Positions 23,276-25,685 of a stretch of DNA of 25,685 nt are shown piece after piece. A program made the position numbers and the translations under genes. The DNA comes from a virus. The first letter of the stretch is position 1. Every line of letters begins with the position of its first letter. The stretch lies in IMG/VR virus record IMGVR_UViG_3300042376_000353, positions 1-25,685 of that record. One strand, 5' to 3'. A model generated the notes under the pieces. The model saw only the letters and a program-made list of their open reading frames with translations. It ran no database searches and had not been told where the DNA came from.

Positions 23276-23482
23276 ATGATCCTTGAACTTCTCAACGCCA
23301 ACCCGTGGCGCTTTGCCGCTGGTGATGTGGTCTACATCGTCGGCCATGAGCAGCAGCCGGCCAAGGTGACCATGGCCTTTGGTCATGGTCGGCTCAGCTG
23401 GCCGCACTACCTAGTGGTGGATTACGAAGGGCATGAATGGACTGTTTCACAGCAGCGCTTAACGCGGTCGCCATTGCCATGA
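23276..23482 (+). CDS. 68-aa hypothetical protein, SH3-like beta text
   Basis: 68 aa with a good ribosome site (GGAGA, 9 bp before ATG 23276). Text: FAAGDVVYIVGHEQQPAKVT, then MAFGHGRLSWPHYLVVDYEG and HEWTVSQQRLTRSPLP. The pattern GDVVYIVG...V...G...YLVVD...W.V....L is that of a small SH3-like/KOW-type beta barrel, common in phage and cyanobacterial small proteins. No catalytic residues seen. The stop overlaps the next start (ATGA). Confidence 0.65.
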   Translation: MILELLNANPWRFAAGDVVYIVGHEQQPAKVTMAFGHGRLSWPHYLVVDYEGHEWTVSQQRLTRSPLP

Positions 23483-23735: not shown

Positions 23736-23775
23736 AACAAAAATGGTCCCTGGGGGCCTCACCTCAGGGACCATT
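23736..23775 (-). terminator. Rho-independent terminator of the - strand cassette cluster
   Basis: AATGGTCCCTG (23742-23752) and CAGGGACCATT (23765-23775) form a perfect 11-bp stem. On the - strand it is followed by TTTTTGTT, so it ends transcription coming from 25685 towards 23781. On the + strand no T tract follows. It faces the + terminator across ~40 bp, closing two convergent operons. Confidence 0.85.
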
Positions 23776-23780
23776 AGAGA

Positions 23781-23831
23781 TCAGGCCGCTATGTTTTGAG
23801 GGCGCGGACGGCGAAACACCAGGGCCTTCAC
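23781..23831 (-). CDS. Possible short ORF or gene remnant after trailer repeat
   Basis: The frame open from 23870 to a TGA at 23781 ends in coding-like text (GWDEEAVKALVFRRPRPQ then NIAA), 5 bp before the terminator. The only usual start codon is GTG 23831, giving 16 aa (MKALVFRRPRPQNIAA). At the same distance after the other trailer repeat a normal gene starts (24815), so this may be the cut-down end of such a gene. A real peptide, a remnant or chance are all possible. Confidence 0.3.
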   Translation of the reverse strand: MKALVFRRPRPQNIAA

Positions 23832-23859
23832 TGCTTCTTCATCCCAGCCAGTGGAACTT

Positions 23860-23927
23860 GTAAGCAGGATTTACAGGTTGCCGGGTAGGCCCCGGCGGGC
23901 CGTGGACTATTAGGCCATCTGCAAATA
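23860..23927 (-). repeat. Trailer repeat, copy A
   Basis: Pairs with copy B (24822-24892) at high identity. On the - strand it covers the last codons and stop of the preceding ORF, a GC hairpin (GCCGGG, loop GCCTA, CCCGGC; 23896 to 23880) and a conserved AACCTGTAAATCCTGCTT tail. No T tract follows the hairpin, so it is not a standard terminator. Confidence 0.85.
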
Positions 23928-24293
23928 AACGCTAATAAGCTGGCGCTTAGCCAATCTTTGTCTTGTGCCAATTATTTCCTGTAGCTCGCGAACTGTTAGC
24001 CGCTCCAGTTGTGCGGCTATTTCAATTAGCGGATGCTGGACCACTGCCAGCGCCGCTGCTGGTTCTGTTTTTGCCGGCTCCTTTGCCGGCTCCGCTGTCA
24101 CAATTGCTGTGGGCTTCAGCCCCAGGACAGCCACGTGGGCGGCACTGAGCTGAGCATTGGTGCGATGGACCCAGAGCCCCAGGCAGTAGCCCAAGGCGTA
24201 GGCGAATGCGACAACTTTAACAATTGCCTGGCCAACTTCGTGCCAGTTGATTTGATCAACGAAATTGATCGTGGAATTGATGATTTTTTTCAT
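23910..24293 (-). CDS. Membrane-anchored protein with SAP/Rho-N-like C-terminus
   Basis: 127 aa. ATG 24293 lies directly after the shared leader. N-terminal MKKIINSTINFVDQINWHEV, a transmembrane segment (~22-43), then an Ala/Pro/Glu linker (~62-86, TAEPAKEPAKTEPAAA). The C-terminal 35 residues (ERLTVRELQEIIGTRQRLAK then RQLISVYL) resemble SAP or Rho-N type helix-extended-helix domains that bind nucleic acid or act as small adaptors. The end YLQMA resembles YAQVA of the ORF at 24875, because the trailer repeat extends into the last codons. This combination suggests a membrane-tethered DNA or protein binder. Function unknown. Confidence 0.68.
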   Translation of the reverse strand: MKKIINSTINFVDQINWHEVGQAIVKVVAFAYALGYCLGLWVHRTNAQLSAAHVAVLGLKPTAIVTAEPAKEPAKTEPAAALAVVQHPLIEIAAQLERLTVRELQEIIGTRQRLAKRQLISVYLQMA

Positions 24294-24400
24294 TTTTTGT
24301 GGGTGGTGGTGGAGGGCCTCCCCTCCGGTGAACTAATAGTAGCGCACCGCGTTAGGCATGGCGGGGGGCAGGGCGGCCAGTTCACATATTGTCACAAGCT
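24291..24400 (-). promoter_or_regulatory. Shared leader, copy 1
   Basis: The 48 bp from the ATG outward (24291-24338) are identical to the other two leaders. They hold a hairpin (24311-24326, GGAGGG/CCCTCC, loop GAGG on the - strand) and a -10-like TACTAT (24341 to 24336). Weaker similarity to copy 2 goes on to GTGAC near 24391. Likely promoter plus structured 5' UTR. No strong -35 box is seen. Confidence 0.7.
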
Positions 24401-24610
24401 ACGTCGCCTGGCCCTGCTCAGCCTGACCCGCTGGGCTTTAGCAGCCCTGCCCTCTGTGGTCAGCCTCTCCCAGCAGCAGGAACACAGCGCACCATGGATG
24501 CCTCTGCTGTGGGCGCCGCACGCCTGGCAGGTGAGCGGCTGCCAGGGGGTACCGGCTTTCTGGCGGGCGTACCAGCGCCGCTGGCGGGCTGCTGCGGTGG
24601 GGTCAGGCAT
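24392..24610 (-). CDS. Small zinc-finger-like basic protein
   Basis: 72 aa. Two CxxC pairs (C28-C31 in CQACG, C43/C46 in CSCCWERL) spaced 12 apart make a small zinc knuckle, with basic arms on both sides (AAARQRRWYARQKAG, and QRVRLSRARRRSL at the end). Such proteins are common in phages and freshwater cyanobacteria and may bind DNA or RNA. Its ATG overlaps the stop of the upstream ORF by 8 bp (ATGCCTGA), so translation is coupled. It lies between the trailer B and leader 1 elements. Confidence 0.68.
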   Translation of the reverse strand: MPDPTAAARQRRWYARQKAGTPWQPLTCQACGAHSRGIHGALCSCCWERLTTEGRAAKAQRVRLSRARRRSL

Positions 24611-24815
24611 TAATGGAGCTCCAGAGCAGACTGTTAATCTCGGCTTCCACCAGCGCAGGCCAGTTTTCCATTGATGGGTCGTAGGCCGCTTCTAGGGCGA
24701 GAATCAGCTGGGCCCTGGTGATCGTGATTACTCCGCCTTCAACGTGCCAATGGTGGAATCCGTTGCCGATGTGTGTGGCCTGTAGTAGATCGTCAACCGT
24801 GGGAACGGGGCTCAT
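24603..24815 (-). CDS. 70-aa hypothetical protein
   Basis: 70 aa from ATG 24815, 7 bp after the end of trailer repeat B. Text: MSPVPTVDDLLQATHIGNGF, then HHWHVEGGVITITRAQLILA and LEAAYDPSMENWPALVEAEI. A helix, an HHWHVEGG turn (three His, possible metal site) and a long helix. The pattern VDDLL...ITR-QL--AL--AY-- suggests a small adaptor or DNA-binding type fold. No clear ribosome site. It shares a transcript with the zinc-finger gene. Function unknown. Confidence 0.62.
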   Translation of the reverse strand: MSPVPTVDDLLQATHIGNGFHHWHVEGGVITITRAQLILALEAAYDPSMENWPALVEAEINSLLWSSINA

Positions 24816-24821
24816 TGAATT

Positions 24822-24892
24822 GCAAGCAGGATTTACAGGTTGCCGGGATAGGCTCCCGGCGAGCCGTGGATTATCTAAGCTACCTGTGCATA
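24822..24892 (-). repeat. Trailer repeat, copy B
   Basis: Matches copy A. The hairpin here is GCCGGGA, loop GCCTA, TCCCGGC (24860 to 24842 with one more base pair at each side of the loop than copy A). The stem grows by an A-U pair while the loop stays GCCTA, which points to a conserved RNA structure. It overlaps the stop of the ORF at 24875 and precedes the ORF at 24815. Confidence 0.85.
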
Positions 24893-25189
24893 CGCTGCAT
24901 CCCTAGCTGCCCACCACGCAGCTATAGCTGCGTGCACTTCTTCGGAGTCGTCCCCAGGGGACACTCCAGGGGCCTCTGAGGCGCCTATAAAGACTCCATC
25001 CCTCACATAGGCTGGCCGGAACCAGTAGGGAGGGGCCCCAGCTGAGACCAGATGGGGAGCCGGACATTCCCCCATGGGGTGCCCTTCTGCGAGCCAACTT
25101 TCTCTGAGGTTCTCAGCGGCGTCCTGGGCGGCGGCCTGGGCAAAGAACAGCTCATAATATGAGCCATTCCATACAGAAGTGATTGCCAT
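24875..25189 (-). CDS. Cassette protein with conserved N-terminal 23 residues, variant 1
   Basis: 104 aa. Residues 1-23 (MAITSVWNGSYYELFFAQAA then AQD) are identical to the protein at 25278. The remainder is different: AENLRESWLAEGHPMGECPA, then PYWFRPAYVRDGVFIGASEA and EEVHAAIAAWWAARDAAYAQ. The end (AAYAQVA) lies in trailer repeat B. No domain, signal peptide or membrane segment is seen; the N-terminal peptide is aromatic and may be an interaction or localisation tag. Leader copy 2 precedes it directly. Function unknown. Confidence 0.68.
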   Translation of the reverse strand: MAITSVWNGSYYELFFAQAAAQDAAENLRESWLAEGHPMGECPAPHLVSAGAPPYWFRPAYVRDGVFIGASEAPGVSPGDDSEEVHAAIAAWWAARDAAYAQVA

Positions 25190-25246
25190 TTTTTGTGGGT
25201 GGTGGTGGAGGGCCTCCCCTCCGGTGAACTAATAATAGCGCGTAGC
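25120..25246 (-). repeat. 127-bp exact repeat, internal copy
   Basis: Identical over 127 bp to 25559-25685, covering the leader and the first 23 codons. The bases just outside differ at its left end (25119 G versus 25558 T). The other copy runs to the last base of the window. Confidence 0.93.
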
Positions 25247-25255
25247 GTTAGGCCT
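25187..25255 (-). promoter_or_regulatory. Shared leader, copy 2
   Basis: Same leader as at 24291: hairpin at 25207-25222, -10-like TATTAT (25237 to 25232) and an A-rich stretch just before the ATG. It follows the TAA of the upstream ORF (25278) closely. The hairpin may hide or present a GAGG ribosome-binding core, though it is ~25 nt from the ATG, farther than usual. Confidence 0.7.
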
Positions 25256-25277
25256 GCCACCCCCTTTGCCGACCAGT

Positions 25278-25628
25278 TTACAATCCGTCACCATTCCCCA
25301 GCGGCTCGGGCGACTGACCATCTTCGACCGGGGTTGGCACAGTGACCCCCGTGGCGGCCTGTGCAAGCACTGCGCGGATGCCCCGCAGGTAAATTTCGTC
25401 AGCGGTGCCACCCTCGCTGTTGGTGGCCGTATAGAACGCAGTCAACAGCTCCCGGTCGGGGCCGGTGATGTTGTCGTCGATGTAGTTGGCCGGGATCGCA
25501 GGCGGCTGAGTTGATGCCTCAACAGCTGAGCGCAGATCGGCCAGCTGGGCGATGCGTTCGTCCTGGGCGGCGGCCTGGGCAAAGAACAGCTCATAATATG
25601 AGCCATTCCATACAGAAGTGATTGCCAT
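25278..25628 (-). CDS. Cassette protein with conserved N-terminal 23 residues, variant 2
   Basis: 116 aa. Same first 23 residues as the protein at 24875, then a different body: ERIAQLADLRSAVEASTQPP, PANYIDDNITGPDRELLTAF, then a helix (TADEIYLRGIRAVLAQAATG) and an acidic Pro/Gly-rich end (PTPVEDGQSPEPLGNGDGL). No trailer repeat follows it, unlike two of the other units. No known family. The leader runs off the window, so the start is inside the sequence but its promoter region is cut. Confidence 0.66.
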   Translation of the reverse strand: MAITSVWNGSYYELFFAQAAAQDERIAQLADLRSAVEASTQPPAIPANYIDDNITGPDRELLTAFYTATNSEGGTADEIYLRGIRAVLAQAATGVTVPTPVEDGQSPEPLGNGDGL

Positions 25629-25685
25629 TTTTTGTGGGTGGTGGTGGAGGGCCTCCCCTCCGGTGAACTAATAATAGCGCGTAGC
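25559..25685 (-). repeat. 127-bp exact repeat, terminal copy with leader copy 3
   Basis: Identical to 25120-25246. It holds the first codons of the variant 2 ORF and the third leader (hairpin 25646-25661). The match stops only because the sequence ends. A length of exactly 127 bp at a contig end is typical of a short-read assembly that stopped in a repeat at k = 127. Confidence 0.9.

Follow-up and report, generated by a model that had tools for sequence, protein, structure and literature searches.

We analysed a 25,685-bp virus record (IMG/VR record IMGVR_UViG_3300042376_000353, positions 1 to 25,685; hereafter the window) that carries, at its end and on the minus strand, a cluster of small genes set between near-constant leader and trailer sequences. 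The window comes from a close relative of the cyanosiphovirus S-LBS1: its TerL showed 97% amino acid identity to that of Synechococcus phage S-LBS1 (MG271909), and the backbone DNA was 74-85% identical up to window position 23458. S-LBS1 is a freshwater, integrase-bearing cyanosiphovirus (PMC6157547). Among the window's genes are those for a sigma factor of cyanobacterial type and for a Gp157 protein, and the cluster occupies a position that is variable in S-LBS1 and its relatives, between the Gp157 module and a rotamase/SSB/RecT module. S-LBS1 has a backbone like that of the window, but other genes occupy the locus, and neither leader nor trailer was found in S-LBS1 or in 9 sibling loci that extend to the site (L139-L147). 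The related loci that do bear the leader are all metagenome contigs, many of them fragmentary. The features of the cluster, including its open reading frames (ORFs), follow one another in minus-strand order:

25629-25685, minus: leader A, cut off by the contig end; -10 box TATTAT 25676-25671; 5' hairpin 25661-25646; exact 127-nt terminal repeat of 25120-25246
25278-25628, minus: ORF1, 116 amino acids, slot gene; N-terminus common with ORF2; 3' end (..GDGL stop) within the next leader
25190-25291, minus: leader B; upstream element 25291-25276; -10 box TATTAT 25237-25232; 5' hairpin GGAGGG-GAGG-CCCTCC 25222-25207
24875-25189, minus: ORF2, 104 amino acids, slot-1 gene; 3' end (YAQVA) like the end of L023 ORFD
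24820-24871, minus: trailer (T1 hairpin GCCGGG-agccta-TCCCGGC), directly 3' of the ORF2 stop
24603-24815, minus: ORFB, 70 amino acids, slot-2 gene; its L006 homologue is fused to an AcrIE4-like anti-CRISPR domain
24392-24610, minus: ORFC, 72 amino acids, CxxC..CxxCW zinc-ribbon protein with a weak DZR_2 match
24294-24395, minus: leader C; upstream element 24395-24380; -10 box TACTAT 24341-24336; 5' hairpin 24326-24311
23910-24293, minus: ORFD, 127 amino acids, slot-1 gene; C-terminus charged, a single membrane segment likely on inspection by eye; homologues in L007, L023 and L024
23858-23909, minus: second trailer copy (T1), 3' of the ORFD stop; ORFB is next in L007, not in the window
23737-23773, minus: GC hairpin (an inverted repeat) and T-run, probable cluster terminator

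An earlier note, made from the sequence alone, had described three leaders, two trailers and two proteins with the same N-terminus, and all of these were recovered. The leaders precede ATGs at 25628, 25189 and 24293 with about 55 nt common to all three, the third lying beyond chance (self-BLAST E 2.7e-23), and the trailers were 91% identical (self-BLAST E 8e-16 for the second). Two leader copies were identical over 127 nt, and because this identity runs 69 nt into coding sequence, ORF1 and ORF2 have 23 N-terminal residues in common. Two details needed correction: the zinc-ribbon ORF is not enclosed by leader and trailer but directly precedes the leader of ATG 24293, and the leader length of 48 bp was too short, the constant part starting at a GTGAC..TGTRAAC element at 25291 and 24395.

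Leader and trailer sequences

Leaders were present in about 120 viral loci, and a degenerate pattern of the upstream element alone returned 117 stretches; exact hairpin 19-mers were found in 17 contigs. Nearly all leaders showed GTGACGGATTGTGAAC or close variants upstream of the hairpin. A TANNNT box stood exactly 54 nt from the element start (38 nt after the 16-nt element) in 79 of 85 distinct elements, whereas any other tested offset gave at most 3 of the 85, and this spacing emerged unasked. An ORF of at least 40 amino acids started just downstream in 79 of the 85 elements, compared with 25% at random positions. CATC stands shortly after the -10 box and, in one leader subtype, the hairpin is next; a second subtype has a short untranslated region (UTR) without the 5' hairpin. 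Across 52 distinct UTRs the hairpin was mostly kept while the sequence changed (mean z -2.1), with loops mostly GAGG or GAGA. Among eight distinct 16-nt hairpins, pairing was 97.9% and 4 of the 6 pairs had undergone double changes, values matched for pairing and covariation by 0 of 500 shuffles. The leader looks like a promoter followed by a 5' RNA hairpin, and we infer that the transcript starts at the predicted site, a few nt before that hairpin.

The leader had no match in 50,697 named phage records. Its exact 19-mer gave 7 scattered matches in genome contigs, none cyanobacterial, which we took as chance, although cyanobacterial genomes were not properly covered by that search; Rfam returned no known RNA family in the cluster region. 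Conservation of the upstream element merely as coding sequence for a zinc-ribbon C-terminus (KRDGL stop) was rejected as the sole cause, most copies not lying after that gene. As a separate observation, two apparently unrelated contigs have homologues of the anti-CRISPR protein AcrIE4 behind TATAGTTCACACATCGAC (L195:497-514 and L197:2958-2975). Over 18 nt this sequence is identical to the -10/start region found in some leaders of the short-UTR subtype, and there a classical -35 box (TTGACG) stands in place of the upstream element.

The 3' end of a unit is either CCCACGGCCCGCCGGGAGCCYATCCCGGCA, a stable hairpin without a U-run (T1) directly after the stop codon, or a classical terminator hairpin with a U-run. 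The trailer was found behind the stop codons of many unrelated genes, with the exact T1 20-mer in 40 stretches, and its stem length varied on both sides together (GCCGGG/CCCGGC, GCCGG/CCGGC). A tRNA origin of the trailer, raised by the likeness of CTGTAAATCC to a tRNA-Tyr anticodon loop, was rejected: ARAGORN found no tRNA, and the T1 core occurs elsewhere without that part. Three contigs (L171, L172, L176) have three T1 trailers within about 500 nt and no leader matches; these are possibly trailer-only arrays.

Gene replacement between the constant ends

The earlier note had set a search for leader and trailer in other genomes as the check that could refute an exchange of genes; the search returned many other contigs, with different genes in different orders. 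Behind the leaders we counted 152 ORFs, 109 of them distinct, which fell into 57 BLAST clusters. The exact hairpin GGAGGGGAGGCCCTCC preceded 13 unrelated gene clusters, and the INGRSF gene family occurred with four different hairpins; no INGRSF slot protein was found in named phages or in plasmids.

The proposed swapping of units between constant ends was seen directly in three sibling pairs, and the breakpoints suggest that recombination took place in the constant parts. L023 and L024 have flanks 95-98% identical and unrelated slot genes (109 and 61 amino acids), the difference spanning ATGACTG to the stop codon. L014 and L126 have the first and last cassettes in common and a different middle cassette. 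The backbone of L007 was 96-99% identical to that of the window, and its cluster reads ORF2, ORFC, leader, ORFD, trailer, ORFB, terminator; because the position of ORFB differs between the window and this sibling, ORFB has changed place.

Comparison of all contexts with both flanks homologous showed different genes in 446 of 563 pairs; these pair counts are not mutually independent, and one or two ORFs may be miscalled, but the conclusion stands without them. In a group of 57 contigs whose flanks are homologous, one slot held 21 gene clusters, and at flank identities of at least 90% one group of 8 contigs held 8 gene clusters. At the level of these sequence comparisons, whole-gene replacement between constant ends in near-identical phages is shown.

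Traces of exchange were also found within the window. The ORF2 end, trailer and ORFB were 94% identical to the ORFD end, trailer and ORFB of L023. Apart from the cassette cluster, the 10.8 kb of L023 sequence compared had no DNA similarity to the window; the block seems to have come from an L023-like phage, and the resemblance of the ORF2 3' end to the ORFD end suggests a chimaeric junction. ORF1 had no Pfam, PHROG or PADLOC match, but L014:6207-6359 (minus) encodes a homologue of its C-terminal part (61% over 51 amino acids) away from leader units, which suggests that ORF1 is an ORF2-type N-terminus joined to the domain found there. The DNA of the constant ORF1/ORF2 N-terminus, sought as a wider family, was not found elsewhere. 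A recombinase of the annealing type, RecT (phrog_561), was present in S-LBS1 and in 11 of the 26 records examined, and RecT/Red-type proteins have been reported to recombine diverged phage DNA (PMC2327257, PMC3945230).

Slot cargo and the AcrIE4 family

We scanned 50 representative slot proteins against Pfam, and the sole anti-CRISPR match was PF25703. It was matched by the slot-1 protein of L037 with 41.9 bits (cut-off 27), a protein also present in L039 and L088 and as a partial copy in L074, and by a domain of the L006 slot-2 protein with 62.2 bits (cut-off 27); scored against this model, AcrIE4-F7 reaches 92.6 with its AcrIE4 half. PF25703 carries the name AcrF31 (Anti-CRISPR protein F31), yet its top score here is AcrIE4, so that the name may mislead on target type. 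The L037 and L006 proteins also matched the AcrIE4 half of AcrIE4-F7 (PDB 7vzm) directly, with E values of 2.7e-9 and 1.1e-10.

AcrIE4-F7 blocks the site of Cas8e that binds the protospacer adjacent motif (PAM); changes at E19 or D22 abolish Cas8e binding, and changes at Y20 and D30/E31 weaken it (PMC8887544). In our alignments the contact residues E19, Y20, D22 and D30/E31 were kept in L037, and L006 has E at D30. By cut-off and by Cas8e-contact residues, both proteins fall within the AcrIE4 family, and on this sequence evidence the slot protein of L037, L039 and L088 is an AcrIE4-type anti-CRISPR. Its relatives in named phages, at 40% identity, were in Pseudomonas phages. The L006 protein joins the AcrIE4-like domain, in frame, to a homologue of window ORFB, an arrangement like the fusion of AcrIE4 with AcrIF7 in AcrIE4-F7. 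ORFB itself had no Pfam match, and its structural model (predicted local distance difference test, pLDDT, 88) gave no significant fold match.

The expectation of anti-host or anti-defence genes at this position was therefore borne out in part: an AcrIE4-family anti-CRISPR occupies a slot in related phages, whereas the window's own five ORFs match no known anti-CRISPR family, and for them an anti-defence role is a prediction only. Many slot proteins had no match at all. A J-domain slot gene of about 165 amino acids (N-terminal DnaJ, PF00226; C-terminal part without assignment) was seen in L061, L069, L073, L084, L112 and others.

Two companion genes were found beside the leaders. A member of the ORFC family lay directly upstream of 40 of 157 leaders; ORFC had no helix-turn-helix (HTH) match and no significant fold match, and zinc-ribbon proteins of its kind were not found in named phages. 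A small protein with one membrane segment and a C-terminal HTH lay directly upstream of the leader in L014 (gene end ~8711), L032 and L078; the family also occurs in L092 (behind a leader) and at L147:10599-10793, and not in the window. This membrane-HTH protein is, from its sequence, a candidate regulator of these clusters.

Known systems, rival explanations and proposed working of the slots

The earlier note knew of no described phage system with this exact make-up, a statement that needs a qualifier, as anti-CRISPR (acr) loci and morons are of a similar nature. Small variable genes and a conserved companion are likewise seen in acr-aca loci (aca, anti-CRISPR-associated genes) of Pseudomonas and Pectobacterium phages, and related phages differ at the locus (PMC7648647); the homologue of the L037 slot protein that we examined, in Pseudomonas phage LESphi4, opens an acr operon. 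The window has the conserved promoter-like sequence before variable small genes. On the other hand, its companion ORFC is a zinc ribbon of the CxxC type and lacks the HTH that marks Aca, and members of a known Acr family were found in L037 and L006 and not among the window's five ORFs. The slots further differ from acr-aca loci in the constant 5' RNA hairpin, the constant hairpin behind each stop, the several promoter units and the cyanobacterial hosts, features known here from sequence.

Conserved repeats at gene starts and gene borders have been described in mycobacteriophages. The start-associated sequences (SAS) of cluster K consist of a 13-nt GGGATAGGAGCCC by the start codon, and the extended SAS (ESAS) have 17-bp inverted repeats (PMC3203893); as with the leaders, a conserved element is repeated before the starts of many small genes of different phamilies. 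The leader sequence differs from SAS, however, and no trailer or gene-swap slot is part of the SAS/ESAS description (PMC3203893). The cluster O phages have 17-bp repeats, often at gene borders, and gene gain and loss were attributed to recombination between them (PMC4351075); unlike the leaders, these repeats are palindromic, partly intragenic and not linked to starts.

Morons of temperate phages are accessory genes with their own promoter and terminator between backbone genes. By its sequence the cluster fits this description, with promoter-like and terminator-like signals that are absent from close relatives, and it departs from it in that dozens of unrelated genes draw on one family of signals and replace each other one for one within a slot. 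By analogy, the system may work like an acr locus with moron-type signals.

The reading that we consider likely is that the cluster consists of portable expression slots with constant signals and exchanged small genes, the cargo being largely anti-defence. The slots could instead be ordinary morons: the signals would simply express a mixed set of accessory genes, not biased towards anti-defence and shuffled by general mosaic recombination. The J-domain and membrane-HTH proteins among the cargo and the lack of a match for most slot proteins fit this, as do the signals with their absence from close relatives; but one of the few confident family matches is an anti-CRISPR with its contact residues kept, a slot-2 family is fused to the same AcrIE4-like domain, and allelic replacement in one slot is unusually strong, and we regard this explanation as rather unlikely. 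Movement of the units by a site-specific cassette system, integron-like or driven by a phage serine integrase, would account for constant-ended units in head-to-tail arrays, and serine integrase genes lie near, and opposite to, the first leader in L010 (12582-13838) and L023 (4770-6032). However, units have two different ends, and breakpoints vary between ATG, stop and the inside of coding sequence. Integron gene cassettes were rejected on their attC boxes (RYYYAAC / GTTRRRY), since just 8 of the 157 leaders have RYYYAAC; the stretches that we examined, with no profile search aimed at integron integrases, showed none. We judge such a system very improbable.

An assembly artefact, or a recent local duplication in one phage, is suggested by the third leader copy, which is an exact 127-nt contig-terminal repeat (25559-25685 = 25120-25246) that stops at the last base. 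This copy is an assembly break of a k=127 de Bruijn graph in the repeat, and the cluster continues past the contig. The two remaining copies lie inside the contig between unique flanks, contigs from other metagenomes have the same architecture, and L007 ends near the same place. The independent contigs largely refute an artefact or local duplication, which we find scarcely credible. L045 and L077 likewise end near a leader or its repeat, and leader repeats may break many cyanophage assemblies.

Several points weigh against the reading of exchanged, largely anti-defence slots. Slot genes called different may be very diverged homologues, and downstream ORFs were called by a simple rule by which L130 is probably miscalled, although the exchange result does not hang on it. 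RecT was not seen in 15 of the 26 records, including L023, L024 and L014, although these are fragments, and the window contig stops before the region of the S-LBS1 RecT gene. Of about 57 clusters, no more than a single slot-1 family and a single slot-2 fusion have an anti-CRISPR match; a search of the slot proteins for anti-defence genes with PADLOC, NCBIfam and PHROGs gave nothing further, and the J-domain and membrane-HTH genes need not be anti-defence. The promoter case, too, is one made from sequence.

For the slots as portable expression units we propose the following working. Each slot would comprise a phage promoter (16-nt element, 38-nt spacer and -10 box), a 5' mRNA hairpin, one small gene and, immediately after its stop codon, a 3' hairpin that is either T1 or a terminator with a U-run; between this and the next promoter there would often be a second gene and one for a zinc-ribbon protein. 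The leader would act as a promoter with an activator-like upstream site, as its spacing supports. The conserved structure of the 5' hairpin is consistent with protecting or regulating the mRNA, and the hairpin after the stop may end or protect it. Since the constant ends supply the signals, any gene placed between the two hairpins would be expressed at once. Because the ends are alike across phages, their short homology would suffice for RecT-type annealing proteins or host recombination to replace genes. The shared ends would be kept for the needs of expression, with homology for swapping as a by-product. Since one slot family is of AcrIE4 type and a second carries a fused AcrIE4-like domain, most of the cargo would serve anti-defence, as it does in acr loci. 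The slots, a probable store of anti-defence genes, would as such be pressed to change, and their diversity suggests an arms race.

The cluster offers a clean natural case in which phage genes are seen to be replaced one at a time between two defined ends. It makes the drivers of modular phage evolution testable, flanks and promoter being constant and the gene different. Anti-defence genes are short and mutually unlike, hence hard to find, and aca genes have served as a key for finding anti-CRISPRs; the constant leader is a sequence key to the slot. We know of no described anti-CRISPR locus in freshwater Synechococcus and its relatives. We see even chances that picocyanobacterial phages have a common expression platform with a large, fast-exchanged anti-defence pool, in which ORFB, ORFD, ORF1 and ORF2 would be new families and the leader a search key that would reveal dozens more.

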